Virus record (IMG/VR): IMGVR_UViG_3300042892_000120
Location: 1 to 29,996 of that record
Reading direction: 5' to 3' (one strand)
Length of the DNA: 29,996 nt
Source: a virus
The position numbers and the translations under genes were made by a program. Below the pieces are notes generated by a model. The model was given only the letters and a program-made list of their open reading frames with translations, had not been told where the DNA came from and searched no databases. Position 1 is the stretch's first letter. Every line of letters starts with the position of its first letter. Positions 2,288 through 29,996 of the stretch are shown here, in pieces.

Positions 2288-2296
2288 GGCTCAGTA

Positions 2297-3523: not shown

Positions 3524-3552
3524 TTGTTTTATCCGCCAAAAGCGCCTATAAT
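3524..3552 (+). promoter_or_regulatory. Sigma70-like promoter upstream of portal gene
   Basis: TTGTTT at 3524-3529 is followed by a 17-base spacer and a perfect TATAAT at 3547-3552. The -35 element begins immediately after the large terminase stop. Transcription would start near 3559, leaving a short leader with AGGAA at 3571-3575 before the portal start at 3581. The -35 matches consensus at only three positions, so the perfect -10 and the exact spacing carry the call. Confidence 0.55.
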
Positions 3553-3580
3553 GGCGCGAAATGAATTGCGAGGAACTGCC

Positions 3581-5659: not shown

Positions 5660-5684
5660 TGGGTGAGAATTGTATGAGGATCGA

Positions 5685-6533: not shown

Positions 6534-6553
6534 ACCCATAAAGGACATGCCAA

Positions 6554-7822
6554 ATGGCAAACTCGTTTTCTAAAGAAGAGCGCGTAGCGTTCGAAGACAT
6601 CCTCTCCGGCTTTAACGACGCACTCGTTTTGTCGTCGTTGGTCACTAAGTATAACACCAACGGTCAACAGATGGAGCGTTCGTCGGACACCATCTGGCGC
6701 CCTGAACCCTACATCGCACAGTCGTTTGATGGTTCGGACGCTACGTCCAACTTCAAAGACTCGACCCAGCTTGCTGTGCCTGCAACCATTGGCTACCAGA
6801 AGCACTCGACGGCGCTGCTGACCGCAAAAGAACTGCGCGACCAGTTGCAGGAAAACCGTCTGGGTCAGGCTGCTGCTCAGAAGCTGGCTTCTGACATCAA
6901 CGTGGCCGTGCTGACTGTTGCTTCTAACCAAGGCACTATCGTTTCCAAGCGCACCACCGCTGCATCGGGCTTCACTGATGTTGCAGAGGTTGATGCTCTG
7001 ATGAACGAGCAGGGCGTGATGATGAGCGACCGCAACTATGCGCTGTCCACCCGTGACTACAACGGAATGGCTGCTGACTTGGCTGCGCGTCAGACCATGA
7101 TCCAAATCCCGACCGAAGCGTATCGTCGCGCTTACGTTGGCGAAGTGGCTGGCTTCCAGACCTATAAGATGGACTATGCAACCCGCCTGACGGCGGCTGC
7201 TGGCACAACTGTGACGGTCAACGGCGCTAACCAGTATTACACCCCCAAGGCCACCTCGACGGCTTCGACGGGTGAAGTTGCAAACGTGGACAACCGCTAC
7301 CAGAACCTGACCATCGCTGTTGGCGGCGGCACGGTGAAGGTTGGCGATGCGTTCACCATCGCAAACGTCTTTGCTGTTCACCACATCACCAAGCAAAGCA
7401 CTGGCGTTCTGAAGACCTTCCGCATCACCGCAATCGTCTCTGGTTCGGGCGGTTCGGGCGTGGTCACGATCAGCCCGCCGATCATCTCCAATGGCGGTTC
7501 GACCGATGCCGAAGCGCAGTATAAGAACGTGACTGCAACGCCTGCAAACGGCGCGGCTATCACCTTCTTGAACACTGTGACTGCAGCAGTGAACTGCTTC
7601 TGGCACCGCGATGCCATCGAGTTGCTGCCCGCATCGTTGGCGATCCCGACTGATGCTGGTGCTGACATCATGCGCGCAACGACCGATCAGGGCGTTGAAC
7701 TGGTGATGCAGAAGCAGTTCGACATCAACACCCAGAAGACCAAGTATCGTTGGGATACTTTGTTCGGTGTGGCGATGTTGCAGCCCGAAATGGCTGGCAT
7801 CCAGTTGTTCTCGCAGACCTGA
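6554..7822 (+). CDS. Major capsid protein (P22 gp5-type coat)
   Basis: The coat protein builds the icosahedral shell with an HK97-type fold. The 422-residue length matches P22 gp5 (430). Stretches recall P22 coat directly: MERSSDTIWRP near the N-terminus, VDNRYQNLTIAVGG in the middle and CFWHRDAIELL near the C-terminus, each with a counterpart in the P22 protein at a similar position. AAGGA at 6541-6545 lies eight bases before the ATG. Codon use looks strongly biased, with many GTT/GCT/AAG and CGC/CGT codons, as expected for the most abundant product. A strong terminator follows nine bases after the stop, which would limit read-through to later genes. Confidence 0.96.
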   Translation: MANSFSKEERVAFEDILSGFNDALVLSSLVTKYNTNGQQMERSSDTIWRPEPYIAQSFDGSDATSNFKDSTQLAVPATIGYQKHSTALLTAKELRDQLQENRLGQAAAQKLASDINVAVLTVASNQGTIVSKRTTAASGFTDVAEVDALMNEQGVMMSDRNYALSTRDYNGMAADLAARQTMIQIPTEAYRRAYVGEVAGFQTYKMDYATRLTAAAGTTVTVNGANQYYTPKATSTASTGEVANVDNRYQNLTIAVGGGTVKVGDAFTIANVFAVHHITKQSTGVLKTFRITAIVSGSGGSGVVTISPPIISNGGSTDAEAQYKNVTATPANGAAITFLNTVTAAVNCFWHRDAIELLPASLAIPTDAGADIMRATTDQGVELVMQKQFDINTQKTKYRWDTLFGVAMLQPEMAGIQLFSQT

Positions 7823-7830
7823 TAACAACG

Positions 7831-7858
7831 GAGAGGGGGTTTTGGCCCCCTCTCTTTT
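7831..7858 (+). terminator. Rho-independent terminator after coat gene
   Basis: A perfect 9-bp GC-rich stem pairs 7831-7839 (GAGAGGGGG) with 7846-7854 (CCCCCTCTC), around a 6-base loop TTTTGG, followed by TTTT at 7855-7858. It lies between the coat stop and the ribosome binding site of the next small gene. It probably sets a step-down in expression after the coat protein, with read-through supplying the tail genes. Confidence 0.9.
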
Positions 7859-7872
7859 CATAGGGGAATGAC

Positions 7873-8043
7873 ATGGCGCTTAAAAAAGGTTACAGTAGCA
7901 AGACCATCGGCTCCAACATTAAGGCGGAGATGAAGGCCGGAAAGCCCAACAAGCAGGCGATTGCTATTGCTCTCAGCACTGCTGAAAAGGCCGCAAAGAA
8001 AGCTGGCAAGCCATCAAAAGCACCCAAGAGGAAAATGGCATGA
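7873..8043 (+). CDS. Small lysine-rich phage protein (GYSxKTIxxNI type)
   Basis: This 56-residue, very basic protein begins MALKKGYSSKTIGSNIKAEM and continues with KPNKQAIAIALSTAEKAAKKAG. I recognise the pattern of a GYS-K-T-I-NI start followed by a KQA-AIAL helix from many small phage proteins of unknown role. A DNA- or RNA-binding role is plausible from charge alone. AGGGGAA at 7862-7868 precedes the ATG by four bases. The gene is the first after the coat terminator, and its stop overlaps the next start as ATGA. Confidence 0.8.
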   Translation: MALKKGYSSKTIGSNIKAEMKAGKPNKQAIAIALSTAEKAAKKAGKPSKAPKRKMA

Positions 8044-8216
8044 CTGTGATGCTCTACAAATCGCCGGGGCCGCACAAGTTTCATGGTGGCGATTTTGATT
8101 ATATCGTTGTGGATGAGGCTGACGTTGATGTGTGCTTGGCCGAGGGCTGGGCGCTGACAACGACTGAGGCTGGCGACAAACCCAAGCGCGGTCGCAAACC
8201 AAAGTTTGAGGAATAA
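8040..8216 (+). CDS. Small phage protein with basic AT-hook-like tail
   Basis: This 58-residue product has the N-terminal pattern MTVMLYKSPGPHKFHGGDFDYIVVDEADVD, followed by a short helix ending in GWALTTTEA. A basic C-terminal tail KPKRGRKPKFEE resembles an AT-hook core but lacks the exact RGRP. Similar short proteins sit just upstream of gp4-like adaptor genes in P22-like phages as I recall them, with function unknown. The start overlaps the previous stop (ATGA at 8040-8043), so translational coupling is likely. The next gene starts three bases after the TAA. Confidence 0.8.
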   Translation: MTVMLYKSPGPHKFHGGDFDYIVVDEADVDVCLAEGWALTTTEAGDKPKRGRKPKFEE

Positions 8217-8219
8217 ATC

Positions 8220-8705
8220 ATGGCCTTCACGAAGCGCGACATCATCAATCAAGCGTTTGCCGAAATTGGCATGGCTGACTATGTGTTCGACCTGCAACCG
8301 CAGCAGCTTGAAAATGCGCTTCGCCAGTTGGACATGATGATGGCGACATGGAATGGCAAGGGCATCCGCATCGGCTATCCGCTGCCATCATCGCCCAGCG
8401 GTAGTGATCTGGACGAGAACACTGGCGTGACCGACATAGCTTTAGAAGCCATGTATTTGAATTTGGCCATTCGGATTTCCAGTGGCTACGGCAAGACCGT
8501 CAGCCCGGAAACCAAGGCCGCTGCAAAGTATGCTTACAACCAGTTGCTTGGTCGGTCGGCGCTGCCGATTGAAATGCAGATTGGCAATCAAACTGTTCCA
8601 TCGGGTGCTGGCAACAAGGGCTGGCGCTACTACAACAACCCCTATTTGCGTCAGCCTACCGATCCTTTGACGGTTGGCTCTGATAGCATTCTTGATCTGG
8701 AGTGA
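8220..8705 (+). CDS. Head-to-tail adaptor (P22 gp4-like tail accessory factor)
   Basis: P22 gp4 binds beneath the portal and closes the head before gp10 is added. The 161-residue product has the typical opening MAFTKRDIINQAFAEIG. A helical core follows with LENALRQLDMMMATWNGKGIRIGYPLP, then TDIALEAMYLNLAIRISSGYGKTVSPETKAAAKYAYNQLL. The opening, the WNGKGIRIGYP segment and the length (P22 gp4 is 166) fit the family well. The C-terminal segment is glycine- and asparagine-rich. In P22 the gp4 protein also has peptidoglycan hydrolase activity; here a separate transglycosylase is encoded downstream. Confidence 0.88.
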   Translation: MAFTKRDIINQAFAEIGMADYVFDLQPQQLENALRQLDMMMATWNGKGIRIGYPLPSSPSGSDLDENTGVTDIALEAMYLNLAIRISSGYGKTVSPETKAAAKYAYNQLLGRSALPIEMQIGNQTVPSGAGNKGWRYYNNPYLRQPTDPLTVGSDSILDLE

Positions 8706-8708
8706 ATC

Positions 8709-9806
8709 ATGGCTAACATCAACCAACTTTCCTCAACCTCGACATTGCAAGGCGGCGATCTTCTAGCCGTCTGGGCGCAAGACAACGGCGACACGCGAAA
8801 GGCTTCCCTGACGCTTGTGTCAGACTACATCGCTGGCACGATTGATCTGCCTGTTGACATCAGCCTAAGCCAATACTCTGCTCCCAGCGCAACGGGATTT
8901 ACGGTGGCGATTACGGCTGCGAACACATGGCTGGTGTTGAACCCAACCAACGCATTTGCAGCCGGAACGATTGTTCTTCCCACTGGTGTTGCAGACCTGT
9001 CAATGGTTTCAGTTGTCACGACCCAAGCTATCACGGCGCTGACGGTTTCTGTGTCTGGTGCTGCTGTAATCGGTGCGCCGACATCCGCTGCGGCCAACAC
9101 GGCCTTCACTCTGCGCTACGATGCAGTTACCAACTCTTGGTATCCCGAAAATCAGAACTTTCTGAGCGCGACTGCGTTTGCTCTGACCTTGCTGAACGAT
9201 CCTGACGCTGCAACGGCTCGAGCGACCTTGGGTCTTGGGACGATTGCAACGCAGGCTGCGGCCAGTGTGGCTATCACAGGCGGATCAATCACTGGCATCA
9301 CAGACCTTGCGGTTGCTGATGGCGGAACGGGATCATCCACGGCTTCTGGTGCGCGAACCAATCTTGGCGCTGGTGCAGTTGGCGCAAACGTATTCACTGC
9401 GGCCACGGCACTTGCAGCGCAGCAGGCTATGGACACCGAGGTTGGCGTGGATGTGCAGGCATACGATGCTGACCTTGGCGCTTTGGCTGGATTGGCTACG
9501 AACGGCATGATCGCACGCACTGGTGCTGGAACGGCGTCTGTGCGCACCATTACTGCCGGGGCTGGCATCGTCGTTGCGAATGGTGACGGCGTTGCTGGAA
9601 ACCCAACCATTACGTCAACAGACGTTCTTGAGAGTGTCTCTGCTGCTACCATTGCTTCCATTGTCAGCGGGATCAACACCACTGGCAAGGCTGCTGGGAG
9701 AATGGTCTGGGACACCACCAACGGAAGAATCAAAGTGGCAACGGGTGCGCTTGCTGCATCGTCGTGGGTGAACGCGGATGGCACAACCGCTGTGATACCT
9801 ACCTAA
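8709..9806 (+). CDS. Fibre-like phage structural protein
   Basis: This 365-residue protein is rich in Ala, Thr, Gly and Val, with almost no Cys or charged clusters. Its middle holds motifs typical of phage tail-fibre shafts: ATARATLGLGTIATQAA, ADGGTGSSTASGARTNLGAG and VDVQAYDADLGALAGL. The C-terminus ends in WDTTNGRIKVATG followed by SSWVNADGT, a form seen at the ends of many fibre and decoration proteins. It lies between the gp4-like adaptor and the gp10-like plug, so a tail or collar role is likely. I cannot say whether it is a side fibre or a head decoration. The start three bases after the gp4 stop is supported by tight spacing. Confidence 0.72.
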   Translation: MANINQLSSTSTLQGGDLLAVWAQDNGDTRKASLTLVSDYIAGTIDLPVDISLSQYSAPSATGFTVAITAANTWLVLNPTNAFAAGTIVLPTGVADLSMVSVVTTQAITALTVSVSGAAVIGAPTSAAANTAFTLRYDAVTNSWYPENQNFLSATAFALTLLNDPDAATARATLGLGTIATQAAASVAITGGSITGITDLAVADGGTGSSTASGARTNLGAGAVGANVFTAATALAAQQAMDTEVGVDVQAYDADLGALAGLATNGMIARTGAGTASVRTITAGAGIVVANGDGVAGNPTITSTDVLESVSAATIASIVSGINTTGKAAGRMVWDTTNGRIKVATGALAASSWVNADGTTAVIPT

Positions 9807-9848
9807 TATGACACAGCCACCACGGCATACAATGTAAAGGAAAGCAAA

Positions 9849-10775
9849 ATGTCCACGTTCATCTATCCTGCGTCAGTCTCTACCCAAACAGATGTTTCGA
9901 TCCCAGTTGGTCAGACGCTGGTTGTCGGCAGCACTGGCAATCAGCAATCGTTTGTAAACGTCAATAACACGCTTGTGTCGCTGTCAGATCGCGCACAGGC
10001 TTTTGGCCCATACACTGGCGACCGCATTGCAACCATCACCAACTATTATTCCACTGTGGAATATGCTGTTGGTCTTTCTCCAGCGCTGCGCAGTTTCCCG
10101 AATCTGGTTAGTGAAAACTTCGTTGGTGTTGGTTTGGTTGAACCCGCAGCAACCTTCGCAACGCTGACCTATGAAACCAACGCTGGCTTAGTTCGCCTTG
10201 TCAGCGCCGGAGCGCACGGGCTGACCGCAGCAATCTCTGTTGGGGCAAGCGTCTATGTGACTTGGGCAACAGGCACGGGCGTCAATGGCCTTTACGCTGT
10301 CACCGCGCTGGATGCGGACACAACGGGCGTCAAGATCACCATCAACTACCCCTACGTTTTGGGCCTTGGCACTCCGACTGTTGCGGTGGCAAACACTGTT
10401 GTCACTCTGGCATCAGTGACCATTCCCGCATTCTCAATGGGTATCGGCGGCGGGATGGAAATCGACTCGCTGTTTTCGATGACGAACAATGCCACGGTTA
10501 AAACGCTTGGCATGACGCTTGCGGGAACATCTATTCTGTCAGCAGCACTTGCAAGCAACGCAAGCGTTTCTGTCCAGAAGAACTTGGTTAACCGTGGATC
10601 ATCTACGATTATTACCAACTCAACAACATCGGTTGGCCACGGCCTATCAACAGGTGCAATTGTTTCGGTGACTGCAGATGCAACGACCGATCTGGTGTTC
10701 GCAATCACAGCACAGCCTGCCACGGCAAATAACCTGATGCGCCTAGAATACTTCAAACTCAACATCAGCTTCTGA
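9849..10775 (+). CDS. Phage structural protein, probably collar or fibre
   Basis: This 308-residue protein is rich in beta-forming residues (V, T, A, S, G), with no membrane segment or catalytic motif. The N-terminal part (STFIYPASVSTQTDVSIPVGQ) looks like the start of a small beta-domain. Residues about 110-180 contain an AHGLTAAISVGASVYVTW segment resembling beta-sandwich virion domains, and GHGLSTGAIVSV echoes it near residue 268. Two such related AHGL/GHGL segments suggest an internal repeat of a beta-domain. AAAGGAAAG just before 9849 is a strong ribosome site. Its place just ahead of the gp10-like gene points to the tail, but the exact role is unknown. Confidence 0.65.
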   Translation: MSTFIYPASVSTQTDVSIPVGQTLVVGSTGNQQSFVNVNNTLVSLSDRAQAFGPYTGDRIATITNYYSTVEYAVGLSPALRSFPNLVSENFVGVGLVEPAATFATLTYETNAGLVRLVSAGAHGLTAAISVGASVYVTWATGTGVNGLYAVTALDADTTGVKITINYPYVLGLGTPTVAVANTVVTLASVTIPAFSMGIGGGMEIDSLFSMTNNATVKTLGMTLAGTSILSAALASNASVSVQKNLVNRGSSTIITNSTTSVGHGLSTGAIVSVTADATTDLVFAITAQPATANNLMRLEYFKLNISF

Positions 10776-10783
10776 GGTAGTTG

Positions 10784-12184
10784 ATGCAAATCCCAATTTT
10801 GTCGGGCATCTACGCAGACGGATCGCCAAACTTTCGGACATCATATCCGAAAAACATGGTTCCCGTTCCTAAAGAGAATGGGATTTCGAAAGGCTATCTG
10901 CGGCCCGGCGAAGGGATCGTTGAACTAGGAAATGGCCCCGGCATCAGTCGCGGGGCCATTAACTGGAACGGCGAACTTTACCGCGTGATGGGGACTAGCT
11001 TGGTTTCCATTTCTGGTAGCAATGTTGTCACAGTGATTGGCGATGTTGGGTCAGGTGGCCGCGTTACGTTTGACTATGGCTTTACCTATCTAGCTGTAAC
11101 ATCGGGCGGTCGGCTGTATCTGTATGACGGCACCACTCTGACACAAGTGACCGATCCAGACCTTGGCGTGGCTCTAGATGTGGTTTGGGTTGATGGTTAC
11201 TACATGACCACTGATGGCGAGTTTCTTGTCATCACAGAATTGAATGACCCGTTCTCTGTGAGTCCTCTGAAGTATGGCTCGTCTGAAGTTGACCCAGACC
11301 CGATCAAAGCCATCTGGAAACTGCGCAACGAAATCTATGCTCTGAACCGCTATACCATCGAGGTGTTTGACAATACAGGTTCGGCAGGGTTTCCATTCCA
11401 GCGAATCAGCGGTGCGCAAATCCAGAAAGGCACAGTCGGAACCTTTGCCTGCTGTGTGTTCATGGATGCCATTGCGTTTATCGGCGGCGGTCGGAATGAG
11501 GCACCAGCAATCTATCTTGGGGCCAATGGAAACGCGCAGAAGATTTCCACCCGTGAGATTGAAGAAGTCTTGCAGGAATATACCGAAGCCGAGTTGAGTA
11601 TATCCTATATCGAAGAAAAGATTGACCGGGCGCACCAGCACCTGATCGTCCACCTACCGCGCCACACGTTCGTGTTTGATGGCGCTGCATCAACCGCGCT
11701 GTCTATGCCCGTTTGGTTCATGCTTTCGTCTACGTTGGTTGATGAGGACATCTGGAACGCGACCGAGTGCGTGTGGTGCTATGACCGCTGGAACGTGGCG
11801 CATCCCACAACTACCCAATTTGGCTATCTTGTCGACAACATCAGCACCCACTGGGGCGAAACCATTGGCTGGGAGTTCGGCACGCTGATCGTCTACAACG
11901 CTGGCAACGGCGCTTTGTTCCACGACATGGAATTGGTCAGCCTGACAGGCTCAACAGCATTCGGCGTCGATCCCACGATCTGGACGCAGTATTCGGTCGA
12001 CGGCATCACTTGGAGCGTCGAGAAGGGCATCAGCGCAGGGACCATAGGACAGCGCAACAAGCGCCTAGTCTGGTTCCAGCAGGGGAACATGCGGAACATG
12101 CGGATGCAGCGCTTCCGGGGCACCTCTGACGCTCATGTGGCCGTTGCAGCACTGGAGGCGCGGGTTGAACCGCTGGCATTCTAA
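10784..12184 (+). CDS. Packaged-DNA stabilization protein (P22 gp10-like)
   Basis: P22 gp10 forms a hexameric beta-propeller hub under gp4 that keeps packaged DNA in and carries the tail needle. This product of about 466 residues begins MQIPILSGIYADGSPNFRTSYP, with the NMVPVPKENGISKGYLRPGEG segment typical of the family. It continues with repeated propeller-like blades (YRVMGTSLVSI, GGRLYLYDGTTL, DGYYMTTDGEFLVIT, YALNRYTIEVFDNTG). The length matches gp10 (472). TTG 10781 could be read, but ATG 10784 lies six bases from GAGG at 10774-10777 and is preferred. The stop TAA shares a base with the next ATG (TAATG). Confidence 0.92.
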   Translation: MQIPILSGIYADGSPNFRTSYPKNMVPVPKENGISKGYLRPGEGIVELGNGPGISRGAINWNGELYRVMGTSLVSISGSNVVTVIGDVGSGGRVTFDYGFTYLAVTSGGRLYLYDGTTLTQVTDPDLGVALDVVWVDGYYMTTDGEFLVITELNDPFSVSPLKYGSSEVDPDPIKAIWKLRNEIYALNRYTIEVFDNTGSAGFPFQRISGAQIQKGTVGTFACCVFMDAIAFIGGGRNEAPAIYLGANGNAQKISTREIEEVLQEYTEAELSISYIEEKIDRAHQHLIVHLPRHTFVFDGAASTALSMPVWFMLSSTLVDEDIWNATECVWCYDRWNVAHPTTTQFGYLVDNISTHWGETIGWEFGTLIVYNAGNGALFHDMELVSLTGSTAFGVDPTIWTQYSVDGITWSVEKGISAGTIGQRNKRLVWFQQGNMRNMRMQRFRGTSDAHVAVAALEARVEPLAF

Positions 12185-12981
12185 TGGCTGACCCAACAGT
12201 TCCAACACGCAACCAGATCGCGGCACTTGCCCAGAATGACCCGGCAATGATCAAGGCGCTTGAACGTCTGTTCATCGTGGCGGGTGATTTAACGCCTGCC
12301 GACATTGCCACGCTGACGCAACTGATTATTGACAACAGCTACGCCACTGGCGCAGCAGACAACAAAGCAGATGTTGCACTGTCTGAAGCTGGGATAGCAA
12401 AGGCGTTGGCCGATCTGGTGGCGCGTGCGCCATCACCTGCGTCTCAAGAGCAAATCAATAGTCTACAACAGCAGATTTCCGCGTTGCAGCAAACTCCGCC
12501 GCCCAAAGAATACCGCACGCCGCGTTATGGGTCTTTCTACGACACGACATCACAGACGGCTGCTGCAATCAACACCGCTTACGCCATGACGTTCAACACC
12601 ACAGACCTGTCAAATGGGGCCTATCTGGGAACGCCAACATCCCGCGTCTATGTTGATCGTTCCAACGTCTACAACATACAGTTTTCGGCTCAGGTGGATA
12701 AGACGGCTGGCGGTGTGGCGCTGATGTGGATTTGGTTGCGCAAAAATGGGGTCAATGTGCCTGATAGTTCCGGGCAAATTCGCATCCAAGGCAACAACGC
12801 AGAAGTCATTGCGGCGTGGAACTACATCATCCAGTTGAACGCTGGCGACTACATCGAATTGATGTGGGAGGTCGACAATACTTCTGTTATTCTACTGGCC
12901 GAGGTAGCATCGGCAATCCATCCATCTGTGCCGTCAATCATATTGACTGTCACAGATAACGTTAGCACTTTGGAGGTCTAA
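12184..12981 (+). CDS. Tail-needle candidate: short coiled coil plus TNF/C1q-like domain
   Basis: This gene occupies the gp26 position of the P22 order, directly after the gp10-like gene. The 265-residue protein has a helical N-terminal part and a Gln-rich heptad-like stretch (SQEQINSLQQQISALQQ, about residues 87-103). Its C-terminal domain, about 130 residues, runs from YGSFYDTTSQTAAAINTAYAM through YVDRSNVYNIQFSAQ and RIQGNNAE to LNAGDYIELMWEVD. That pattern looks like a C1q/TNF-type jelly roll. Some P22-like needles, such as Sf6, carry a TNF-like knob. A needle role is therefore a reasonable inference, but a short fibre or decoration protein is the alternative. The coiled coil is much shorter than in P22 gp26. 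Confidence 0.6.
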   Translation: MADPTVPTRNQIAALAQNDPAMIKALERLFIVAGDLTPADIATLTQLIIDNSYATGAADNKADVALSEAGIAKALADLVARAPSPASQEQINSLQQQISALQQTPPPKEYRTPRYGSFYDTTSQTAAAINTAYAMTFNTTDLSNGAYLGTPTSRVYVDRSNVYNIQFSAQVDKTAGGVALMWIWLRKNGVNVPDSSGQIRIQGNNAEVIAAWNYIIQLNAGDYIELMWEVDNTSVILLAEVASAIHPSVPSIILTVTDNVSTLEV

Positions 12982-19149: not shown

Positions 19150-20883
19150 ATGCCGTTGACGCAGCTTGCACCGCCCTATCCGATCTTCACTGACAAAAGT
19201 GGTCTGCCACTGAACAATGGTTATCTGTATTTCGGGACAGCGAACCTGAACCCAGAGACAAACCCGATCACGGTGTATTACGACAGCGCGTTGACACAGC
19301 CCGCAGCGCAGCCTCTGCGCACGTCCAATGGCTATGTGATGCGCAATGGCTCACCCGCCATCATCTACGCTAACAGCCAGTTTTCCGTGACTGTGCGTGA
19401 CAAAAACCGCGCAATGGTGATTTACAGCCCGGTCGGCTATGGAATAACGCCCGGAACGTCGGCCACTATCACTGGCCAAATCACCTACAACCAAGGTGGA
19501 ACTGGCGCCGTTAACCGCGTTCTGACATCTCGCCTACAAGACTATATATCAGTTAAAGACTTCGGCGTTGTTGGCGACGGGACAACGGATGACACGGCGG
19601 CATTTAATGCGGCCAGAGCGGCGGCGAGGGCTGCGAAACTTCCTTTGATGATTTATGGAACACCAAGGATCACATCGCAGCTTCTGGTCGACCAAAAAGA
19701 GCATTGGATTTTTGATGGTTTTCTCGGAAACATTTCTGGCTCTCGTCCCTCATCCTATCTCATCAAGGCCTCTTCTGTTTCTGGGGCGCTTGTGTGGATA
19801 ATCGGTTCAGCCACAAATACACTTATCCAGTATGGCGGCATTGTTGGAGAAGCTGGAAACACTGGTGACGGGTATTTGATCCAAGCCAACAGCACTGTCC
19901 TTGAGTATCCCTACGTCGAAGGCGTCGGTCAGGATGGTATTCGTGTTGGCTCTGACACCCCCGGCTCCGGCATCAACACAAACTCTGTGTTAATCCACAA
20001 GCCCAAAGTTTTTGCCTGCGGTCGTCATGGGATTTACCTCAGTGATGGGGATGATACGCAACCTTCAAACGGAAACGCTGGGACTTTGTTCCATGCGTCA
20101 ACTCAGTCAAACTCTGGTGACGGTATCCGTGTCGGGAACGCCAGTTGGTGGTCAATCATTAACCCGCTGTGCCAAGCAAATTCTGGGTATGGGATTTATC
20201 TCGAACCCAACTCATCTATCTCCATTTTCGGGGGTGACAGTGAAAATAATCCGGGCGGAAACCTGTTTTTAGCAAACCCTGAACGGAATAAAATTTACGA
20301 TCTTGACGTAAATGGCCTGCGCTATTCGTCGTTGTTGGACTATGGACCCATTGCCCCTGCAATTAATGGGAACAATGTTGTTTTGAATCCAAATTTTGCA
20401 GATACTTCCATTTGGAAGCTGACTTCGGGATCAAGTATCTCTGGCGGCATTTTGACAATGAATGCCAGCAACGGTGCTTCTCAAAAATTAACCACCGTCA
20501 AAGGGAATAGCTACACCCTGAAAGTTACTGTTTCACAGGCAAGCAATCGCGGTGTGATAAAGGTTGGATCGACGGGCGCTGGGTCATTCAACATCCTAAG
20601 TGCAGGATACATCACGGGGACTGGGGTTTACGAATATTCTTTCGTCGCATTGTCTGAGAACACATGGGTCCAGCTTTCTGCCGATGTATCTGCTACTCCA
20701 GCTTGGGGCGTTTCTCTTGTGGAGGTATATGGGAAAATTGTGAGTAACGGCACCATCAAGCCGAGGCTGTCCACAACTGCGCTGGCTCCTGCATATGAGA
20801 AGGGCGCAATTTACTTCGACAGCACGCTTAACAAGTTGCGTGTCGGCGGTGCTTCTGGGTGGGAAACTATCACTTCAACGTAA
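19150..20883 (+). CDS. Tailspike: P22-type head-binding domain plus beta-helix
   Basis: The tailspike binds and often cleaves host surface polysaccharide. Residues about 1-110 (PPYPIFTDKSGLPLNNGYLYFG, YYDSALTQPAAQPLRTSNG, GSPAIIYANSQFSVTVRDKN) are a P22-type head-binding domain. Residues 134-152 (SVKDFGVVGDGTTDDTAAF) open a pectate-lyase-like right-handed beta-helix of about 250 residues. From about 405 a second module begins (VVLNPNFADTSIWKLTSGS, SYTLKVTVSQA), resembling a carbohydrate-binding jelly roll. The end (KGAIYFDSTLNKLRVGGASGWETI) is a typical fibre tip. AAGGAG at 19137-19142 precedes the ATG. The catalytic residues cannot be assigned from sequence alone. Confidence 0.9.
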   Translation: MPLTQLAPPYPIFTDKSGLPLNNGYLYFGTANLNPETNPITVYYDSALTQPAAQPLRTSNGYVMRNGSPAIIYANSQFSVTVRDKNRAMVIYSPVGYGITPGTSATITGQITYNQGGTGAVNRVLTSRLQDYISVKDFGVVGDGTTDDTAAFNAARAAARAAKLPLMIYGTPRITSQLLVDQKEHWIFDGFLGNISGSRPSSYLIKASSVSGALVWIIGSATNTLIQYGGIVGEAGNTGDGYLIQANSTVLEYPYVEGVGQDGIRVGSDTPGSGINTNSVLIHKPKVFACGRHGIYLSDGDDTQPSNGNAGTLFHASTQSNSGDGIRVGNASWWSIINPLCQANSGYGIYLEPNSSISIFGGDSENNPGGNLFLANPERNKIYDLDVNGLRYSSLLDYGPIAPAINGNNVVLNPNFADTSIWKLTSGSSISGGILTMNASNGASQKLTTVKGNSYTLKVTVSQASNRGVIKVGSTGAGSFNILSAGYITGTGVYEYSFVALSENTWVQLSADVSATPAWGVSLVEVYGKIVSNGTIKPRLSTTALAPAYEKGAIYFDSTLNKLRVGGASGWETITST

Positions 20884-22629: not shown

Positions 22630-22896
22630 ATGAGCAGCGTCCAGATCACCCCGCAGGAACTGGAAGACATGCTGGACCGTGCAGCGATCAAGGGCGCAAA
22701 GAAAGCGCTTGAGGATTTAGGGCTGCATGATGAAAGCGCTTCTGATGATCTGAATGAGATCCGCAGCTTGCTATCGTCGTGGCGTGAAACGCGCAAAGCG
22801 ATCTGGGCGACAACTGTAAAGATGACGACTACGGCCATATTGTTGTTCATCAGCGGTGCGGTTTGGATGACACTCAAAGATAGGGTCGGCCAATGA
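22630..22896 (+). CDS. Small membrane protein at head of lysis block (DUF6127-like)
   Basis: The 88-residue protein has a helical N-terminal part (QELEDMLDRAAIKGAKKALEDLGLHDESASDDLNEIRSLL). One C-terminal transmembrane segment follows at about residues 63-82 (VKMTTTAILLFISGAVWMTL), with a basic patch before it. The arrangement resembles DUF6127-type proteins as I remember them, which occur beside endolysin genes in alphaproteobacterial phages. It overlaps the amidase gene by four bases, which suggests a holin, pinholin or accessory lysis role. It is not a classic two- or three-segment holin. Confidence 0.72.
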   Translation: MSSVQITPQELEDMLDRAAIKGAKKALEDLGLHDESASDDLNEIRSLLSSWRETRKAIWATTVKMTTTAILLFISGAVWMTLKDRVGQ

Positions 22897-23348
22897 GACC
22901 CATCAGCGAAATCATTGTTCATTGCACTGCCACCCGCCCTGAGTGGATGGACGGCAAGCGCACCAGCGAGAAGGTGGCAGAGGTGCGGCGCTGGCATGTT
23001 GAAGACAATGGCTGGCGTGACATCGGTTATCATTTCCTGATCGACCGCGATGGAACGGTTGCCAAGGGCCGACCGATTGAACAGGTCGGGGCGCACACAA
23101 TGAACCACAATGTCGGCTCTATTGGGATTGTCTTGGTCGGTGGTCATGGGTCTGTTGCGAATGGAAAGATCAGCGACAACTTCACTGATCTGCAAGACGC
23201 AGCGCTTCATGCGCTGATTGTGAAACTGATGGCCATTTACAAAATCGCAAAGGTTAGCGGCCATAATCAGTTCGCGGCAAAGGCTTGTCCGGGCTTCTAT
23301 GTTCCGGGCTGGTTCGGAAAATCATCATCTGCAAACATGAATGGATAG
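22893..23348 (+). CDS. Endolysin: T7-lysozyme-type N-acetylmuramoyl-L-alanine amidase
   Basis: The enzyme cleaves the amide bond between MurNAc and L-Ala in peptidoglycan. The 151-residue protein has an Amidase_2 fold with zinc ligands H10 (IIVHCTAT), H124 (GHNQF) and C132 (KACPGF). Catalytic residues Y46 (IGYHFLIDRDG) and K130 match the T7 lysozyme pattern. No signal peptide is present, so it needs a holin for export. It overlaps the upstream membrane protein by four bases and the downstream holin candidate by eight. Length and motifs agree well with T7 lysozyme (151). Confidence 0.95.
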   Translation: MRPISEIIVHCTATRPEWMDGKRTSEKVAEVRRWHVEDNGWRDIGYHFLIDRDGTVAKGRPIEQVGAHTMNHNVGSIGIVLVGGHGSVANGKISDNFTDLQDAALHALIVKLMAIYKIAKVSGHNQFAAKACPGFYVPGWFGKSSSANMNG

Positions 23349-25415: not shown

Positions 25416-25429
25416 TGCGTTTGCATTAC
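25412..25429. terminator. Convergent hairpin, possible bidirectional terminator
   Basis: GTAATGC at 25412-25418 pairs with GCATTAC at 25423-25429 around the loop GTTT. The stem includes the stop codons of the rightward phosphoesterase gene (25413-25415) and the leftward HNH gene (25426-25428). TTT follows on the + strand. The U-tract is short and the stem is not GC-rich, so efficiency is uncertain. It lies exactly where the late and leftward operons meet. Confidence 0.45.
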
Positions 25430-25743
25430 TTTAACCATTGTTTAACCAGCGGCAAGTATTTGTGGTCTTCGCCGTATTTCTCAACCCACGATTCTTTGCC
25501 GTTATGAATTGCGTCTGCGCCTTCTTGGTGGTGCGCCTTGCAAAGCGGGATTGTCTCAAAGTCGCTGGCCTTGGGTGACCCATATCGACCAGAAAATACA
25601 TGGTGGGCATCGCTCGGCCCGTGCTTCAAACAGATCACGCAGGGCAGTTGTTTGACGCGGGCAATGTGCGCCCGCGCCTTAGCTGTGCCACGTTCGGCCT
25701 TGGGTTTCTTCTGACCCAGTGGGCCGCGTTTTGCTAAATCCAT
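25426..25743 (-). CDS. HNH-type nuclease-like protein (Ref/DUF968-like)
   Basis: The 105-residue protein has a basic N-terminus and a zinc-ribbon HNH-like core: CVICLKHGPSDAHHV (about residues 35-49), then TIPLCKAHHQEGADAIHNGKESW. The CxxC, AHH and LCKAHHQ pattern resembles phage proteins related to the RecA-dependent nuclease Ref and to DUF968. It may cut DNA during recombination. It is the last gene of the leftward operon and starts immediately after the TAA of the gene upstream. Nuclease activity is inferred from motif pattern only. Confidence 0.78.
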   Translation of the reverse strand: MDLAKRGPLGQKKPKAERGTAKARAHIARVKQLPCVICLKHGPSDAHHVFSGRYGSPKASDFETIPLCKAHHQEGADAIHNGKESWVEKYGEDHKYLPLVKQWLK

Positions 25744-25935
25744 TTAGGTCAACCATCTTTCCCACTTCAGGCACTGGATGTTGTTCTGCCGCGCCATGTC
25801 ATACAAGTCAGATACTTTTGTCTTGGACTTTTTGGCACGTTGTATGGCCGCTTCAATACGGTCTTTTTCTTCATACAACGGCGGCAGTTTAGCATAGGCG
25901 GCGGTTTTCATAAAGGGCTTTAGAATCCAGTGCAT
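25744..25935 (-). CDS. Small hypothetical protein in recombination operon
   Basis: The 63-residue basic protein reads MHWILKPFMKTAAYAKLPPLYEEKDRIEAAIQRAKKSKTKVSDLYDMARQ..., with a helical basic middle. No known motif is visible. The frame extends to 25989, but GAGGAA lies five bases before the ATG at 25935, which decides the start. The ATG follows the stop of the next upstream gene by one base. It lies between an HNH protein and a winged-helix-like protein. Confidence 0.68.
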   Translation of the reverse strand: MHWILKPFMKTAAYAKLPPLYEEKDRIEAAIQRAKKSKTKVSDLYDMARQNNIQCLKWERWLT

Positions 25936-25936
25936 A

Positions 25937-26197
25937 TCAGTTCCTCGGTCTGGTTGGTGGAAGGATTTTGAGAACGGTTTTTCCTGCATCGGTCAACCGC
26001 CAATGGTTTCCGACAGTTTCAACGACAAAGAATGGCCCATCGTCCGGGGCATCTACACGTTCAGCCCATCCGACCAATTCGAGGCTGTAAAGCGCCGCGC
26101 CATGAACACCGCTGTGAATTGATGTGAAGACTTCTTGCCCGTATTGCTCAATGTCTTTGAGCGCTTGCCACCTTGTGGCGTTTAGTCTGGGTTTCAT
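25937..26197 (-). CDS. Small winged-helix-like protein, unknown role
   Basis: The 86-residue protein has an opening helical part (MKPRLNATRWQALKDIEQYGQEV), a GVHGAALYSLELVGWAERV segment, and the end WRLTDAGKTVLKIL. The LTDAGK pattern is typical of winged-helix wings, so DNA binding is possible, but no direct evidence exists. The start overlaps the stop of the NinB-like gene (ATGA at 26194-26197), with AGGAG upstream inside that gene. It sits in the leftward recombination operon. Confidence 0.7.
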   Translation of the reverse strand: MKPRLNATRWQALKDIEQYGQEVFTSIHSGVHGAALYSLELVGWAERVDAPDDGPFFVVETVGNHWRLTDAGKTVLKILPPTRPRN

Positions 26198-26646
26198 TGG
26201 AACTCCTGTTCATATTTCAGTGCTTCTGGATCAGTTAATCGCACACCTTGCGCCGTCCAGTTCCGCTGCATTTCATCCATAAACGCAGTCATTTGTTTTG
26301 CTGTCATTAGTCTTGTGACTGGCAGATCAAAGGCCTTGATCGCATCAAGTTTATTTTCATAAGGCAGGTCTTTGATTACTCGATCATAAGAAATCCGAAA
26401 CGCCTCATTTTCGGCTCGCAAAATAGGAACGCCGAATCGAAGTTTGCAATCCGCTCGAACATCCTCATGGGTTTGGTCTCCAAGTTGTGTGGCAATGTCA
26501 GTAAACCACCGCTGTGCTAGTCTGTTCTGTGCAGTTGATCTTGGCGCACCTTGTGTCCATGTTACGGTTATTGGCAGTTTGCGCCCGCGCAACAGGTTTG
26601 CAAGCGCTTCAACATGGATGGGGTCTCTGATGACCTTGGTGGGCAT
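26194..26646 (-). CDS. NinB-like recombination protein candidate
   Basis: This 150-residue protein contains PITVTWTQGAPRSTAQNRLAQRWFTDIATQ, close in pattern to the R-S-x-x-Q-N segment of NinB/YbcN-type single-strand DNA binding recombination proteins of lambdoid phages. The rest is helical and basic/acidic mixed (VRADCKLRFGVPIL, LPVTRLMTAKQMTAFMDEMQ). Its place beside Erf and exonuclease genes fits a recombination role. Length is close to lambda NinB (146). The start overlaps the stop of the small paralogue upstream (TGATG). The family assignment is tentative. Confidence 0.6.
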   Translation of the reverse strand: MPTKVIRDPIHVEALANLLRGRKLPITVTWTQGAPRSTAQNRLAQRWFTDIATQLGDQTHEDVRADCKLRFGVPILRAENEAFRISYDRVIKDLPYENKLDAIKAFDLPVTRLMTAKQMTAFMDEMQRNWTAQGVRLTDPEALKYEQEFQ

Positions 26647-26831
26647 CAGCCTGCGCCCTGATTTCTCAAAAATGAAATCAAAACATCTTTGACCTCATCG
26701 TTTGTTACGTTCAATTCCTTGGCTGTTTTTTCAAATGTTTCATACAAGTTATCGCCCCACGGCACGCCGTCTTTTTCTTCGATATTTTCAAAAGTTCTGA
26801 TGATTAACTTTGCATCGATCAAGTTCTTCAT
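26646..26831 (-). CDS. Small protein, tandem paralogue B (NQGAG end)
   Basis: The 61-residue product (MKNLIDAKLIIRTFENIEEKDGVPWGDN...) is clearly a paralogue of the gene just upstream. They share KLIIxT[FY][DE], EE, a W, the helix AKELx[IV]xxDEV and the C-terminal NQGAG. Function is unknown, and I recognise no family. Its ATG overlaps the upstream stop (ATGA) and its stop overlaps the NinB-like start (TGATG). The codons for NQGAG contain AGGGCGCAGG, which can act as the ribosome site of the next gene. It is an acidic, helical protein. Confidence 0.75.
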   Translation of the reverse strand: MKNLIDAKLIIRTFENIEEKDGVPWGDNLYETFEKTAKELNVTNDEVKDVLISFLRNQGAG

Positions 26832-27004
26832 CCTGCACCCTGATTGGTCCAGTGGCTCACCATCACTTCGCTGACCTCATCGCGTGGGATGTCCAGTTCT
26901 TTTGCCACCTTGTCCATCGTCATCGATGCCAAGGCATGCCATATGCCGCCAGCCTCTTCTTCAAGGCGGTCATATGTAGCAATGATTAGTTTTCGATCAG
27001 ACAT
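26828..27004 (-). CDS. Small protein, tandem paralogue A (NQGAG end)
   Basis: The 58-residue product reads MSDRKLIIATYDRLEEEAGGIWHALASMTMDKVAKELDIPRDEVSEVMVSHWTNQGAG; the full frame covers 27004 down to 26828. It aligns along its whole length with the next gene. Shared residues include KLII, T, EE, G, W, AKEL, DEV and the terminal NQGAG. It overlaps the exonuclease stop by eight bases, with GAGAAG upstream. The DNA encoding NQGAG (AGGGTGCAGG) lies just before the next start. Function is unknown; position between exonuclease and NinB-like genes suggests a recombination accessory role. Confidence 0.75.
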   Translation of the reverse strand: MSDRKLIIATYDRLEEEAGGIWHALASMTMDKVAKELDIPRDEVSEVMVSHWTNQGAG

Positions 27005-27611
27005 TAAACTTCTCCCGCAGCTGCTGAAGTTTCATTTCCAGATCGCCAAGGAACTTGATCACCTCGGCCTTGATGTCTGTCTGCGTGGCGTGATCTGCGT
27101 GGACCCGCTGCATCCAAAAATTCATATCGCCCGGCATACGGGGATCGAAGCTGACGAAATCGCACCATTCCCGCCCGCAGCACATCATCTGCACTTGCAT
27201 CTGGATCATGTATTTCGACGGAACCTTGCCAGCCAGCAGCGTCTCAATGTGGGTGGCAGAGTTTGGGCATTTGATTTCGATCAGCCCATCCGATCCTACC
27301 AGCCCATCAGGTGATGCTCCGAAGCCAGCGATGGTCGGGTGTGGAATAAAGCCTGTCTCCACCACAGCCTCGCCTGTCATCAACTCGTAGGCCATGCGGG
27401 CCTGTGGCTCAGTATCCGTTCCCCACTGCATAGCGCTGCTAGAAAAGCCCTCTGTGGGCGTCTGCGTCAGTCGCTCGGTGATAAGCTGGGCCATGTAGTT
27501 TGCACGGCTGGCGCTATATCCCGTCTTGGTGGTCGCCATCACATCGGCGGTGCGGGATGCTGTGACACATCCCAACCGCGCTGCGAACCATTCTTCACTG
27601 CGCTGTTCCAT
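26997..27611 (-). CDS. YqaJ/lambda-exonuclease family 5'-3' exonuclease
   Basis: The enzyme resects double-stranded ends to give single strands for the Erf-type annealing protein. The 204-residue protein has EEWFAARLGCVTASRTADVM at the N-terminus and E76 in the MAYELMTG helix. The catalytic PDGLVGSDGLIEIKCP block carries D102, E112 and K114, equivalent to lambda exonuclease D119, E129 and K131. SKYMIQMQVQMMC follows. The gene overlaps the upstream Erf gene by 17 bases, so the two are co-translated as a synaptase/exonuclease pair. Confidence 0.94.
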   Translation of the reverse strand: MEQRSEEWFAARLGCVTASRTADVMATTKTGYSASRANYMAQLITERLTQTPTEGFSSSAMQWGTDTEPQARMAYELMTGEAVVETGFIPHPTIAGFGASPDGLVGSDGLIEIKCPNSATHIETLLAGKVPSKYMIQMQVQMMCCGREWCDFVSFDPRMPGDMNFWMQRVHADHATQTDIKAEVIKFLGDLEMKLQQLREKFNV

Positions 27612-28191
27612 TTGCCACCCCCAATGCTGATTTTTTGGTCAGCATGGCGATTGCGTCGATCGCTTGCTTTTCGGTCATGTCTTCTAGCTGCTTAACTTTC
27701 CAGTAAGCGCAAAACTTTGCCTCGTCTGTGTTTGTATCAAACATCAGGTCGCTCATTTCCACATATTGCTCTTTGCTGATCAGCTTGCTCGGTTCGACCT
27801 TGGGCGCGGCTTTCGCAGCTGCGTTGCCATCATCATCTTCTGGCGCGATGCCTGTGAGGCTCTCAAGGCCGATCCGCTTGGCATAGGTCGTGGCAGACTT
27901 CATCCCCTGCATATCTTGCTTGTTGATGATCAGCGGCACATCGCAGGAAACGCTGGTTTCGCTTGCGCCATGAACCAGCATCGTGCGCATCACGGCGCCC
28001 TGTTCATCCCGCACCATCATGTGGAACATGGCGATGCCTTGCTCGGTCAGCGCCGGGATGGCGACCGAAACCACATCGGCCAGATCAGCGTATTTCGATT
28101 TAAACGCGGGGTTGGTTGCGCCTTTCACAACCTTGCCCATGCCAGCCTGTGCTGCGCACAAAGCCATGTAGATGTTTTTATGCTCGGTCAT
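27595..28191 (-). CDS. erf: Erf-family single-strand annealing protein
   Basis: ERF proteins anneal complementary strands, and in P22 circularise the genome and promote recombination. The 198-residue protein has the ERF core NPAFKSKYADLADVVSVAIPALTEQGIAMFHMM, then TMLVHGASETSVSCDVPL, and DMQGMKSATTYAKRIGLESLTGIAPEDDDGN (residues about 28-120). The QGMKSATTYAKR motif is diagnostic. The C-terminal region is a charged, helical, family-variable tail. ATG 28191 begins MTEHKN and follows the stop of a 30-residue membrane-protein gene; an upstream ATG at 28209 lacks a ribosome site. Confidence 0.94.
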   Translation of the reverse strand: MTEHKNIYMALCAAQAGMGKVVKGATNPAFKSKYADLADVVSVAIPALTEQGIAMFHMMVRDEQGAVMRTMLVHGASETSVSCDVPLIINKQDMQGMKSATTYAKRIGLESLTGIAPEDDDGNAAAKAAPKVEPSKLISKEQYVEMSDLMFDTNTDEAKFCAYWKVKQLEDMTEKQAIDAIAMLTKKSALGVANGTAQ

Positions 28192-28192
28192 T

Positions 28193-28285
28193 TCAGAACC
28201 CCAATCCATAACCCAAAAAGAACAGGCCGTAGGCCATTACAAAGAGCATCACAGCCCCAACTGCATCTTCGATCCATTCGCGCAT
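28193..28285 (-). CDS. 30-residue single-pass membrane protein
   Basis: This very short gene lies exactly between two genes of the leftward operon. The reading frame 28285-28193 gives MREWIEDAVGAVMLFVMAYG followed by LFFLGYGLGF. A charged, amphipathic start (MREWIED) precedes one hydrophobic segment (residues about 10-29). The ATG directly follows the TAA of the upstream gene, and its TGA is one base from the Erf start. I recall similar MREW-type tiny membrane proteins in alphaproteobacterial phages, with unknown role. Coupled position and the clean N-terminal charge/hydrophobic pattern support it being real. Confidence 0.72.
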   Translation of the reverse strand: MREWIEDAVGAVMLFVMAYGLFFLGYGLGF

Positions 28286-28510
28286 TTAATAAAACTCCAC
28301 TTCAATCCAAAGAGACAGGATGGCGTCCTGCAGCGCTTTTGGCAGTTCTTTTATGTCGACTGGCGTATCCAGAATGAACACTTGGTCAACCTCAACAGTG
28401 TTCATATCGACCTCTTCCCAGACAGGCGAACCCGGCACACCGAAGTCTGTGCGGACGCTCTCTGCGACAAAGCGAACCTTGATTTCTTCACCCTTGTAGT
28501 ATGCTTGCAT
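28286..28510 (-). CDS. Small acidic hypothetical protein, first in leftward operon
   Basis: The 74-residue protein (MQAYYKGEEIKVRFVAESVRTDFGVPGSPVWEEVDMNTVEVDQVFIL...) looks like a small beta-rich acidic domain with no known motif. The start at 28510 is preferred over the in-frame ATG at 28525, because GGGAG (fwd 28519-28523) lies eight bases upstream of it. It is the first gene after the divergent control region and is followed immediately by the 30-residue membrane protein. As the promoter-proximal early gene it could be a host-takeover or inhibitor protein, but nothing in the sequence shows that. Confidence 0.7.
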   Translation of the reverse strand: MQAYYKGEEIKVRFVAESVRTDFGVPGSPVWEEVDMNTVEVDQVFILDTPVDIKELPKALQDAILSLWIEVEFY

Positions 28511-28527
28511 GGTCTTTTCTCCCATTC

Positions 28528-28577
28528 TTGCGTTGTTCGTCTAACATCGGTCTAACGATCTTGCTTGCGCTTGTAAA
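28528..28577. promoter_or_regulatory. Divergent early control region with 11-bp direct repeats
   Basis: GTCTAAC occurs at 28539-28545 and again at 28550-28556, exactly one helical turn apart. A rightward promoter candidate is TTGCGT at 28528-28533, a 17-base spacer and TCTAAC at 28551-28556. A leftward candidate is TTTACA (minus strand of 28572-28577), a 17-base spacer and TAGACC (minus strand of 28549-28554). Both -10 elements lie on the second repeat, so a repressor bound there could control both directions. The hexamers match consensus only moderately, so the promoters are provisional. Confidence 0.38.
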
Positions 28578-28618
28578 CAACTATTTGCATCAGGCGCAAC
28601 TTTGTGCAAGATGGCCGC

Positions 28619-28813
28619 ATGGAAAACACATCACGCATCGCTCTGGCCCAGCACATCAAGGCCGAAAAAATGAAGAAGAAAGATTTTGCTGCCATGCTCG
28701 GTGTCAGCGCATCGCAGCTTTCCCGCTGGCTGTCTGGCTCGGTTGTGCCTGATCGCCTGTCACGCAAGTTTCTGGAGTTTGCCACAGGCGTCTCGTCGGA
28801 TGGCTGGCAGTGA
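28619..28813 (+). CDS. Small Cro/C1-type HTH regulator
   Basis: The 64-residue protein has an HTH_3-type fold: helix (IALAQHIKAEKMKKKDFAAMLGVS) and recognition helix (ASQLSRWLSGS) at about residues 20-40. A short C-terminal helix follows (LSRKFLEFATGV). There is no peptidase or dimerisation extension, so it is Cro-like in size. The ATG at 28619 is within 50 bases of the repeated operator-like sequences, which it may bind. AAGATGG ahead of the ATG is only a weak ribosome site. Its TGA overlaps the next GTG start (GTGA). Confidence 0.8.
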   Translation: MENTSRIALAQHIKAEKMKKKDFAAMLGVSASQLSRWLSGSVVPDRLSRKFLEFATGVSSDGWQ

Positions 28814-29166
28814 AGATTCAGCCCAGCTTTGCCCGCAAGACAGCTAACAAGTATGGCGCTAAGAAAACGATGGTTGGCGAAGTCCAGTTCGCAAGCAAAA
28901 AGGAAGCCCAGCGCTATATGGAATTGCAGCTGCTCGAGCGGGCTGGGGAGATCAGCAATCTGCGCCGGCAAGTCAAGTTTGAACTGATGGGCCAGCATAG
29001 GCCGCTATACACCCGCACGGGCCGGAAGATGAAATACACGGCGGACTTCGCTTATGTTGAAGACGGCGTTGAGGTAATCGAGGAATGTAAAGGCGCTTGG
29101 ACTCGTGACTTTGAGGTGCGCTATGCGGTCGCCATTGCGATGGGATTAAATCTGCGCGTGACCTAG
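28810..29166 (+). CDS. DUF1064-type nuclease-like protein
   Basis: The 118-residue protein matches the DUF1064 pattern as I remember it: KYGAKKT, FASKKEAQRYMELQLLERAG, LRRQVKFEL, KMKYTADFAYVEDG and VIEECKGAWT. Acidic residues E32, D79 and E92 with K94 fit a PD-(D/E)XK nuclease core, including the E-x-K of EECKG. A DNA-structure endonuclease role is therefore plausible. The start is GTG at 28810, overlapping the upstream stop, so coupling is likely. It lies in the early rightward operon with the regulator and replication protein. Confidence 0.82.
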   Translation: MKIQPSFARKTANKYGAKKTMVGEVQFASKKEAQRYMELQLLERAGEISNLRRQVKFELMGQHRPLYTRTGRKMKYTADFAYVEDGVEVIEECKGAWTRDFEVRYAVAIAMGLNLRVT

Positions 29167-29354: not shown

Positions 29355-29996
29355 ATGCACAGTTTCGACCCAGACATAGCGCAGCGCGTGGGCGTCCATG
29401 CCGCTGTAATCTACCAGAACATTTTCTGGTGGACCCAGAAGAACGCTGCGAACGGAAAGCATATCAAAGATGGGTATGTTTGGACGTTCAACAGCAGAAC
29501 GGCCTTTGCCAAACTTTTCCCATATCTCACTGAAAGCCAGATCAAGACGGCATTGCAGAAACTTTGTGAGAGCGGGCTGGTCATAAAGGGCGAATACAAC
29601 GCATCAAGCTATGATCGAACAAACTGGTATGCGCCGACCGAAAGCGCAAAATGGGTCAACCTTGCCATTGGTCAAGAATCGCCAATGGGCTGGTCAGAAA
29701 AGGCCAATGGGCTGGTCACTGAGGGCCAACCTATACCAGATATAAACACAGATCATAAACCAGTTGGTAAACAAGATAAGGCGGGCAAGCCGCCCGTGGT
29801 TAATGAAGCCTCAGAGATTTTTGATTGTTTGACAATGTGGGCTTCAGAAGCTGCTGTCAAAAGTTTCATCGAGTATCGCAAGAAATCCAAGAGCAAGGGC
29901 TTGACCCTAACCGCAGCCAAACGGCTTGCATCCACCTTACAGGAGATTTTTAATGCAGGAGAAAACCCCGATGACGCACTTGGTCTCGCAGAAGAA
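29355..29996 (+). CDS. Replication initiator protein (O-like), partial
   Basis: The frame opens at ATG 29355 with AGGAG at 29343-29347 and stays open to the window edge, so at least 214 residues are present and the C-terminus is missing. The N-terminal part (RVGVHAAVIYQNIFWWTQKNA, VWTFNSRTAFAKLFPYLTESQIKTALQKLCESGLVIKG) is a winged-helix domain typical of phage replication initiators. A polar linker follows (about residues 105-145). The helical C-terminal domain contains FIEYRKKSKSKGLTLTAAKRLASTL, seen in helicase-loader type proteins. Origin-like repeats lie in the linker-coding DNA, as in lambda O. Confidence 0.85.
   Translation, partial: MHSFDPDIAQRVGVHAAVIYQNIFWWTQKNAANGKHIKDGYVWTFNSRTAFAKLFPYLTESQIKTALQKLCESGLVIKGEYNASSYDRTNWYAPTESAKWVNLAIGQESPMGWSEKANGLVTEGQPIPDINTDHKPVGKQDKAGKPPVVNEASEIFDCLTMWASEAAVKSFIEYRKKSKSKGLTLTAAKRLASTLQEIFNAGENPDDALGLAEE
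29664..29780 (+). repeat. Iteron-like repeats and AT-rich stretch, putative origin
   Basis: The 16-bp sequence GCCAATGGGCTGGTCA occurs at 29681-29696 and again at 29703-29718, with a 22-base period. A related inverted copy, CCATTGG, lies at 29665-29671. Because 22 is not a multiple of three, the two direct copies are read in different frames, so the repeat is kept at DNA level. An AT-rich stretch follows at 29731-29780 (34 of 50 bases A or T). This resembles the lambda origin inside gene O, with iterons then an AT-rich region. Confidence 0.5.

Follow-up and report, generated by a model that had tools for sequence, protein, structure and literature searches.

Does a phage replication gene cut off by the end of its contig contain the origin on which its own product acts? 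The question is raised by a viral contig of 29,996 bp, the whole of which is called the window below, since its 3' end falls within a replication gene begun at position 29355 and short repeats occur in the middle of this gene. A lambda-like origin had been proposed there in a preliminary description made from the letters of the DNA. GC skew in the window tracks gene direction and is uninformative on the putative origin, at which the contig ends.

The initiator gene and its product

The truncated product comprises 214 residues, and a complete relative, L002, which is identical to it across these shared 214 residues, indicates a full length of ~278 residues. Profile search of the window protein reports hits with phrog_11233, a replication initiation protein (E 1.4e-32, residues 2-98, N-terminal domain), and with the 'O-like' phrog_678 (E 8.4e-16); the phrog_11233 profile is matched by 48/48 relatives. 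Pfam did not return any match for the window protein at E 0.1, and Pfam and PDB sequence searches with the initiator protein gave nothing useful. The AlphaFold model of L002, built on 48 relatives, exhibits a predicted N-terminal winged helix (pLDDT mostly >90 across residues 1-97), a linker of low confidence (residues 105-143) and a C-terminal helical domain. The predicted winged helix and the two PHROG hits bear out the assignment of the gene as a winged-helix initiator. Its parts are the following:

29355..29996, + strand: replication initiator gene, 214 of ~278 residues, cut by the contig end (ORF, relatives and PHROG)
29355..29645, + strand: N-terminal winged-helix DNA-binding domain, residues 1-97 (AlphaFold model of L002)
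29532..29573, + strand: predicted recognition helix, residues 60-73 (H60-73 in the AlphaFold model, and covariation)
29535-29537 and 29544-29546, + strand: covarying residues S61 and K64, associated with half-site positions 5 and 4, respectively
29802..29996, + strand: C-terminal helical domain, from residue 150 on, truncated at the contig end (AlphaFold model)

An array of three 22-bp iterons

The 16-bp repeat GCCAATGGGCTGGTCA is present exactly twice, at 29681-29696 and 29703-29718, and its start-to-start spacing of 22 bp puts the copies out of codon phase. As a statistic we took the longest exact repeat at offsets 15-40 within the initiator gene: it did not exceed 13 nt in 1000 protein-preserving codon shuffles and was never >12 in 1000 shuffles of the codon order of the gene, as compared with 16 observed, which rules out a chance origin of the repeat. 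Aligning the relatives at CCTATACC, a sequence located 3' of the repeats, defines the unit, and the two repeats first described become three units of 22 bp (29664-29685, 29686-29707 and 29708-29729):

29664..29685, + strand: iteron 1, GCCATTGGTCAAGAATCGCCAA, dyad 29668-29685
29686..29707, + strand: iteron 2, TGGGCTGGTCAGAAAAGGCCAA, dyad 29690-29707
29708..29729, + strand: iteron 3, TGGGCTGGTCACTGAGGGCCAA, dyad 29712-29729

Each iteron ends in an 18-bp imperfect dyad, YTGGTC-N6-SGCCAA, and a pattern scan of the window finds three perfect matches to it, all within the array. The inverted CCATTGG copy that had been set apart from the repeats is not a separate element, because it shares positions with the left arm (TTGGTC) of the iteron 1 dyad. 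The array lies, as first noted, in the linker-coding part of the gene, between the DNA-binding and C-terminal halves. A candidate fourth iteron at 29577-29594 (CTGGTCATAAAGGGCGAA, with a single mismatch), which precedes iteron 1 by 91 bp, was rejected: it is probably due to chance, since it sits in winged-helix codons, is off the 22-bp register, and the scan outside the array is near chance level.

Iterons of the relatives

A protein scan yielded near relatives of 95-100% identity and others of 37-90%, and further alignment scans extended the relatives to 82 parsed loci. These genes were checked for missing repeats, which the preliminary description had named as refuting its proposal. The proposal withstands this check, as most of them carry 22-bp-phased dyad repeats in the same linker, with different sequences. 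Over the 20 nt before the anchor, the self-identity of the 82 iteron sets (<80% alike) is 0.68 at offset 22, as compared with 0.34-0.41 at offsets 21 and 23 and mostly 0.2-0.3 at other offsets (~0.25 being the level at unrelated offsets). Three does not divide 22, so each copy is translated in a different frame from the next, and coding periodicity is no explanation for this identity. Dyad complementarity in the same 82 sets reaches 0.62 at one centre versus <=0.41 at other centres, and at pairs 8-19, 9-18 and 10-17 it is higher than in any of 500 shuffles across loci. At block positions 12-14, A is the base in 0.52-0.85 of the 82 sets, which makes an A-rich centre; this centre is weaker in iteron 3 of the window.

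The iteron arms differ from phage to phage yet agree between the copies of one phage. Among close relatives, L005-L009 have GCCAATGCGCTGGTCA in both copies, a C replacing the same G and thereby altering two different codons, and L010 and L011 have another arm, again the same in both copies. Of note, three near-perfect GGGCTGGCCCAAAAGGGCCA units stand before position 7748 of locus L151 at a spacing of 21-23 bp, not strictly 22, which indicates that the iteron register can shift slightly.

A conserved AT-rich element abuts the iterons

The AT-rich stretch reported directly 3' of the repeats is indeed there: it is 67% AT over 52 nt, a level reached in only 0.28% of the 52-nt windows of the contig. 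It is itself ordered, comprising four 12-bp units, in codon phase, that start immediately after iteron 3:

29730..29777, + strand: putative AT-rich opening element made of four 12-bp units, CCTATACCAGAT / ATAAACACAGAT / CATAAACCAGTT / GGTAAACAAGAT

Viral contigs were scanned with the DNA pattern of the 12-mers alone, blind to iterons and protein, and at least 119 stretches were returned. The element is in frame within an ORF in 60/60 representatives of 80 fetched stretches, and 80% of these 60 show >=0.6 identity at offset 22 just upstream of the 12-mers. Among the fetched loci there is one exception, L244:3476-3499, where the 12-mer pattern is in frame and the upstream protein is not initiator-like. 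The exact 24-mer CCTATACCAGATATAAACACAGAT is present in 65 stretches of viral contigs; it is found in Vibrio phages, in Flavobacterium phages inside a longer near-exact match, and also in one Lachnoclostridium genome. In the contigs compared, phages of several phyla thus have the AT-rich 24-mer in identical form. As a background control, the element was searched for in ~1190 genomes of three phyla, with no match besides the seed (Lachnoclostridium) genome, indicating that chance matches to it are rare; a search for the 36-nt element in plasmids returned no match.

A codon test was run on 20 protein-chosen loci, since pattern-selected loci hold the element by construction. Compared with the same amino acids in the rest of the same genes, codons ending in A or T amount to 209/221 in the element versus 756/1519 elsewhere (p 4e-43), an excess which shows that the element is maintained at the DNA level. 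This result also bears on the reading in which the repeats matter at the protein level, as a flexible-linker segment that was duplicated in tandem and is retained for the sake of its peptide. They fall where the model has a linker of low confidence (residues 105-143), which would suit such a duplication. However, the 22-bp period shifts the frame, so that the copies encode different peptides, and the dyads, the concerted base changes and the codon bias point to selection on the DNA. A repeat kept for its peptide is ruled out by the frame, dyad and codon tests, and we hold this reading to be extremely improbable.

Erwinia phage PEp14 (L112:1780-1960) possesses an O-like gene with GAGGGCAA/TTGCCC repeats ~23-25 bp apart; next come 12-bp repeats that differ in sequence from those of the window (ACAGAGATTACA type, TEIT codons) and may be a second version of the opening element.

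Residues of the predicted recognition helix covary with iteron bases

Protein-DNA associations were computed for 96 N-terminal domains <85% identical, with Z values uncorrected for ancestry. In the two top associations, half-site position 4 varies with residue 64, and position 5 with residue 61 (Z 17.4 each, the next being 10.9), and in the model these residues are about one turn apart on the predicted recognition helix. In this training set, Arg or Lys at residue 64 goes with G at position 4 in 60/60 cases, while Glu, Ser or Asp goes mostly with C, and Gly, Val or Ala with T. To limit the effect of ancestry, 62 disjoint close pairs were matched: position 4 is changed in 0/46 pairs with the same residue 64 and in 12/16 pairs differing at it (p 8e-10), and at the 60% identity threshold this association has the smallest p of 658 tests.

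With the rules frozen, 34 held-out loci were usable. Position 4 is predicted correctly in 19/31 (commonest base 11/34) and position 5, by the residue 61 rule, in 15/31 (commonest base 12/34); G accompanies Arg/Lys64 in 9/11 loci versus 2/23 for other residues (p 5e-5). Leave-one-out prediction from residue 61 scores 0.71 versus a base rate of 0.28. When relatives of >=50% identity are dropped, residue 64 alone scores 0.69 versus a base rate of 0.71, a failure explained by the dominance of Arg and G. For half-site position 6, prediction from residue 61 does no better than the base rate. A check by hand of four phages that had no part in the training (Staphylococcus phage 96, phiLdb, PEp14 and H6/1) finds position 4 in agreement in 4/4 and position 5 only in Staphylococcus phage 96 and phiLdb; this is weak evidence, the register having been fitted by eye.

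Recognition and common descent are mixed in this covariation. We regard the association of residue 64 with position 4 as solid for the Arg/Lys-G class and as tentative beyond it, and that of residue 61 with position 5 as partial. Since iteron specificity covaries with recognition-helix residues, the initiator very probably reads the iterons.

Apparent exchange of DNA-binding domain and sites

The C-terminal helical domain is common to relatives with differing DNA-binding domains and iterons, as seen in the identity profile of L002 versus L016. In relatives L013-L018 the C-terminal half is kept, with a different DNA-binding domain and, along with it, iterons of a different type. Between L016 and L002, identity is ~0.5 over gene nt 93-350, a segment which spans the recognition part and the iterons, and rises to at least ~0.9 from nt 395. 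In L013-type proteins, K61 and R64 occur alongside iterons of the TTTGCCC type, and in the window protein S61 and K64 alongside TTGGTCA, in agreement with the association described above. DNA-binding domain and cognate sites therefore appear, from these alignments, to move together between phages. Such joint transfer of a DNA-binding domain and its sites is reported for RepA_N satellites of Vibrio (PMC8263062).

As the breakpoint of the L002/L016 mosaic falls at the 12-mer element, the latter might be mainly a recombination joint that shuffles initiator domains, and not a melting site. Yet the element is common to phages otherwise little alike in nucleotides (Flavobacterium, Vibrio and the Lachnoclostridium genome), and recombination at it may be a by-product of its conservation. 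We consider a role mainly as a joint very unlikely and retain the reading as an opening element. Taken as a whole, it is rather probable that phages of several phyla share the fixed CCTATACCAGATATAAACACAGAT and 12-bp variants of it while the neighbouring iterons diversify, that a helix code (residue 64 to position 4, residue 61 mainly to position 5) predicts the origin, and that the initiator-iteron pair moves as a cassette.

Comparison with the nearest known systems

Annotated iterons of phage lambda were fetched as a control: they are four 18-bp dyads, 20-24 bp apart, located mid-O and adjoining an AT-rich tract. As in lambda O/ori-lambda, the initiator gene of the window contains the putative origin, with iterons between the DNA-binding and C-terminal halves, the direct repeats are imperfect dyads around an A-rich centre, and an AT-rich tract lies directly downstream (PMC7466680). 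In contrast, lambda has ATCCCTCAAAACGAGGGA-type iterons and is devoid of conserved 12-mers, whereas the window has three units in a 22-bp register followed by 12-mers, and the window protein, matching no Pfam family, matches no curated phage O model. Of the lambda-like origin first proposed, the gene-internal layout stands; three iterons with a 12-mer element, and a fold closest to RepA_N, depart from it.

Indeed, RepA_N initiators are the top four PDB fold matches of the DNA-binding domain (4pql, 4pt7, 5kbj and 4pta, Z 8.9-10.0). The RepA_N-type structure alignments cover 86-91 residues, and one of the structures is a Rep-DNA complex. With a Foldseek E of ~0.03, this similarity is a fold resemblance and not proof of kinship. 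The RepA_N profile (PF06970) is found neither in the window protein, nor in L002, nor among the 25 families listed for 48 relatives. Besides the winged-helix fold of the DNA-binding domain, the RepA_N initiators (pSK41, pTZ2162 and Vibrio PLE RepA) share with the window semi-palindromic iterons that meet at an A tract, and in them the DNA-binding domain is exchanged jointly with its origin (PMC7145576, PMC8263062). PLE iterons differ in being ~30 bp long and located in a noncoding region, and a conserved 12-mer element is not described for RepA_N plasmids and satellites in the text consulted. We read the window initiator as working like lambda O and the RepA_N origins and place it in neither family; it belongs to phrog_11233.

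The iteron plasmids of the RK2/F type encode a Rep with two winged-helix domains and have their origin outside the rep gene; to our knowledge, they have no repeat sequence in common with the element of the window. Like the window, RK2 oriV and F have iterons beside AT-rich short tandem repeats, 13-mers in RK2, and Rep proteins of this type bind one single strand of the AT-rich element (PMC4081077).

A very probable replication origin within the initiator gene

Taken together, the locus very likely serves as an origin of phage replication that lies within the gene of the initiator acting on it. We class it as a lambda-like internal origin and, among these, as a subtype that is distinct and widespread. 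The sequence itself shows the iterons with their phasing and dyad symmetry, the conserved element, selection on the DNA, and the covariation of iteron specificity with the predicted recognition helix; what we infer is origin activity, with binding by the initiator, melting, loading of the helicase and a start of replication at this site in vivo. The winged-helix domain would bind the three dyad iterons, as a dimer or as paired monomers, on nearly the same face of the DNA since the 22-bp spacing is ~two turns. Initiators bound in this way may form an O-some-like complex that strains open the adjacent AT-rich 12-mers, and the C-terminal domain would then recruit the replicative helicase or its loader. 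The 12-mers may also be bound directly as a single strand by the initiator, by analogy with RK2 TrfA and F RepE (PMC4081077).

Recognition of the iterons by the initiator would fit equally well with an operator by which the initiator represses its own gene or controls copy number, the origin being elsewhere. Autoregulation is common among Rep proteins and counts in favour of this alternative. However, the sites are ~300 bp inside the gene and not at its start, and an operator would not need to be abutted, across phages from several phyla, by AT-rich repeats of conserved sequence at a constant distance. An operator is therefore unlikely, and we keep to the reading as an origin.

The 22-bp/12-mer layout and the residue-base association are undescribed in the open-access literature searched, and their novelty is provisional. 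The parts provisionally new are the conserved opening sequence and a partly readable initiator-iteron code. The origins of most double-stranded DNA phages known only from sequence are unmapped, and in many contigs the layout lets a probable origin be located, from sequence alone, with single-base precision. It also provides a natural library of initiator-site pairs for learning how winged-helix proteins read DNA. That the opening element stays fixed while the adjoining sites are hypervariable suggests a shared, sequence-specific contact on which strand opening depends. The divergence of the iterons may split phages into replication compatibility groups, or may allow escape from origin-targeting nucleases, for which ICP1 Odn and the PLE satellites give a precedent (PMC8263062).

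Genes around the initiator and in the rest of the window

Among the relatives, neighbouring genes are in line with the proposed origin: a DnaB-like helicase adjoins or follows the initiator gene in Pseudoalteromonas phage H6/1, as does a DnaC-like loader in BcepMigl and phiLdb, and a primase/helicase adjoins it in elemo phage. In the close relative L011, the first ORF downstream of the initiator gives no PHROG match; the region beyond (4204-6291) encodes a DNA methyltransferase (4204-5613) and a single-strand-binding protein (5920-6291).

Upstream of the initiator gene, a recombination module on the minus strand, with plus-strand genes alongside, occupies 25426-28813 of the window:

25426-25743, - strand: RecA-dependent-type nuclease
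26194-26646, - strand: NinB/Orf
26997-27611, - strand: YqaJ exonuclease
27595-28209, - strand: Erf-like annealing protein
28604-28813, + strand: small HTH protein
28810-29166, + strand: DUF1064 resolvase-like gene

The virion module covers 461-12981, where ORFs resemble by eye those of a P22-like phage for large terminase, portal and coat. Two further genes were assigned by PHROG:

19150-20883: tail-spike-like ORF
22893-23348: amidase
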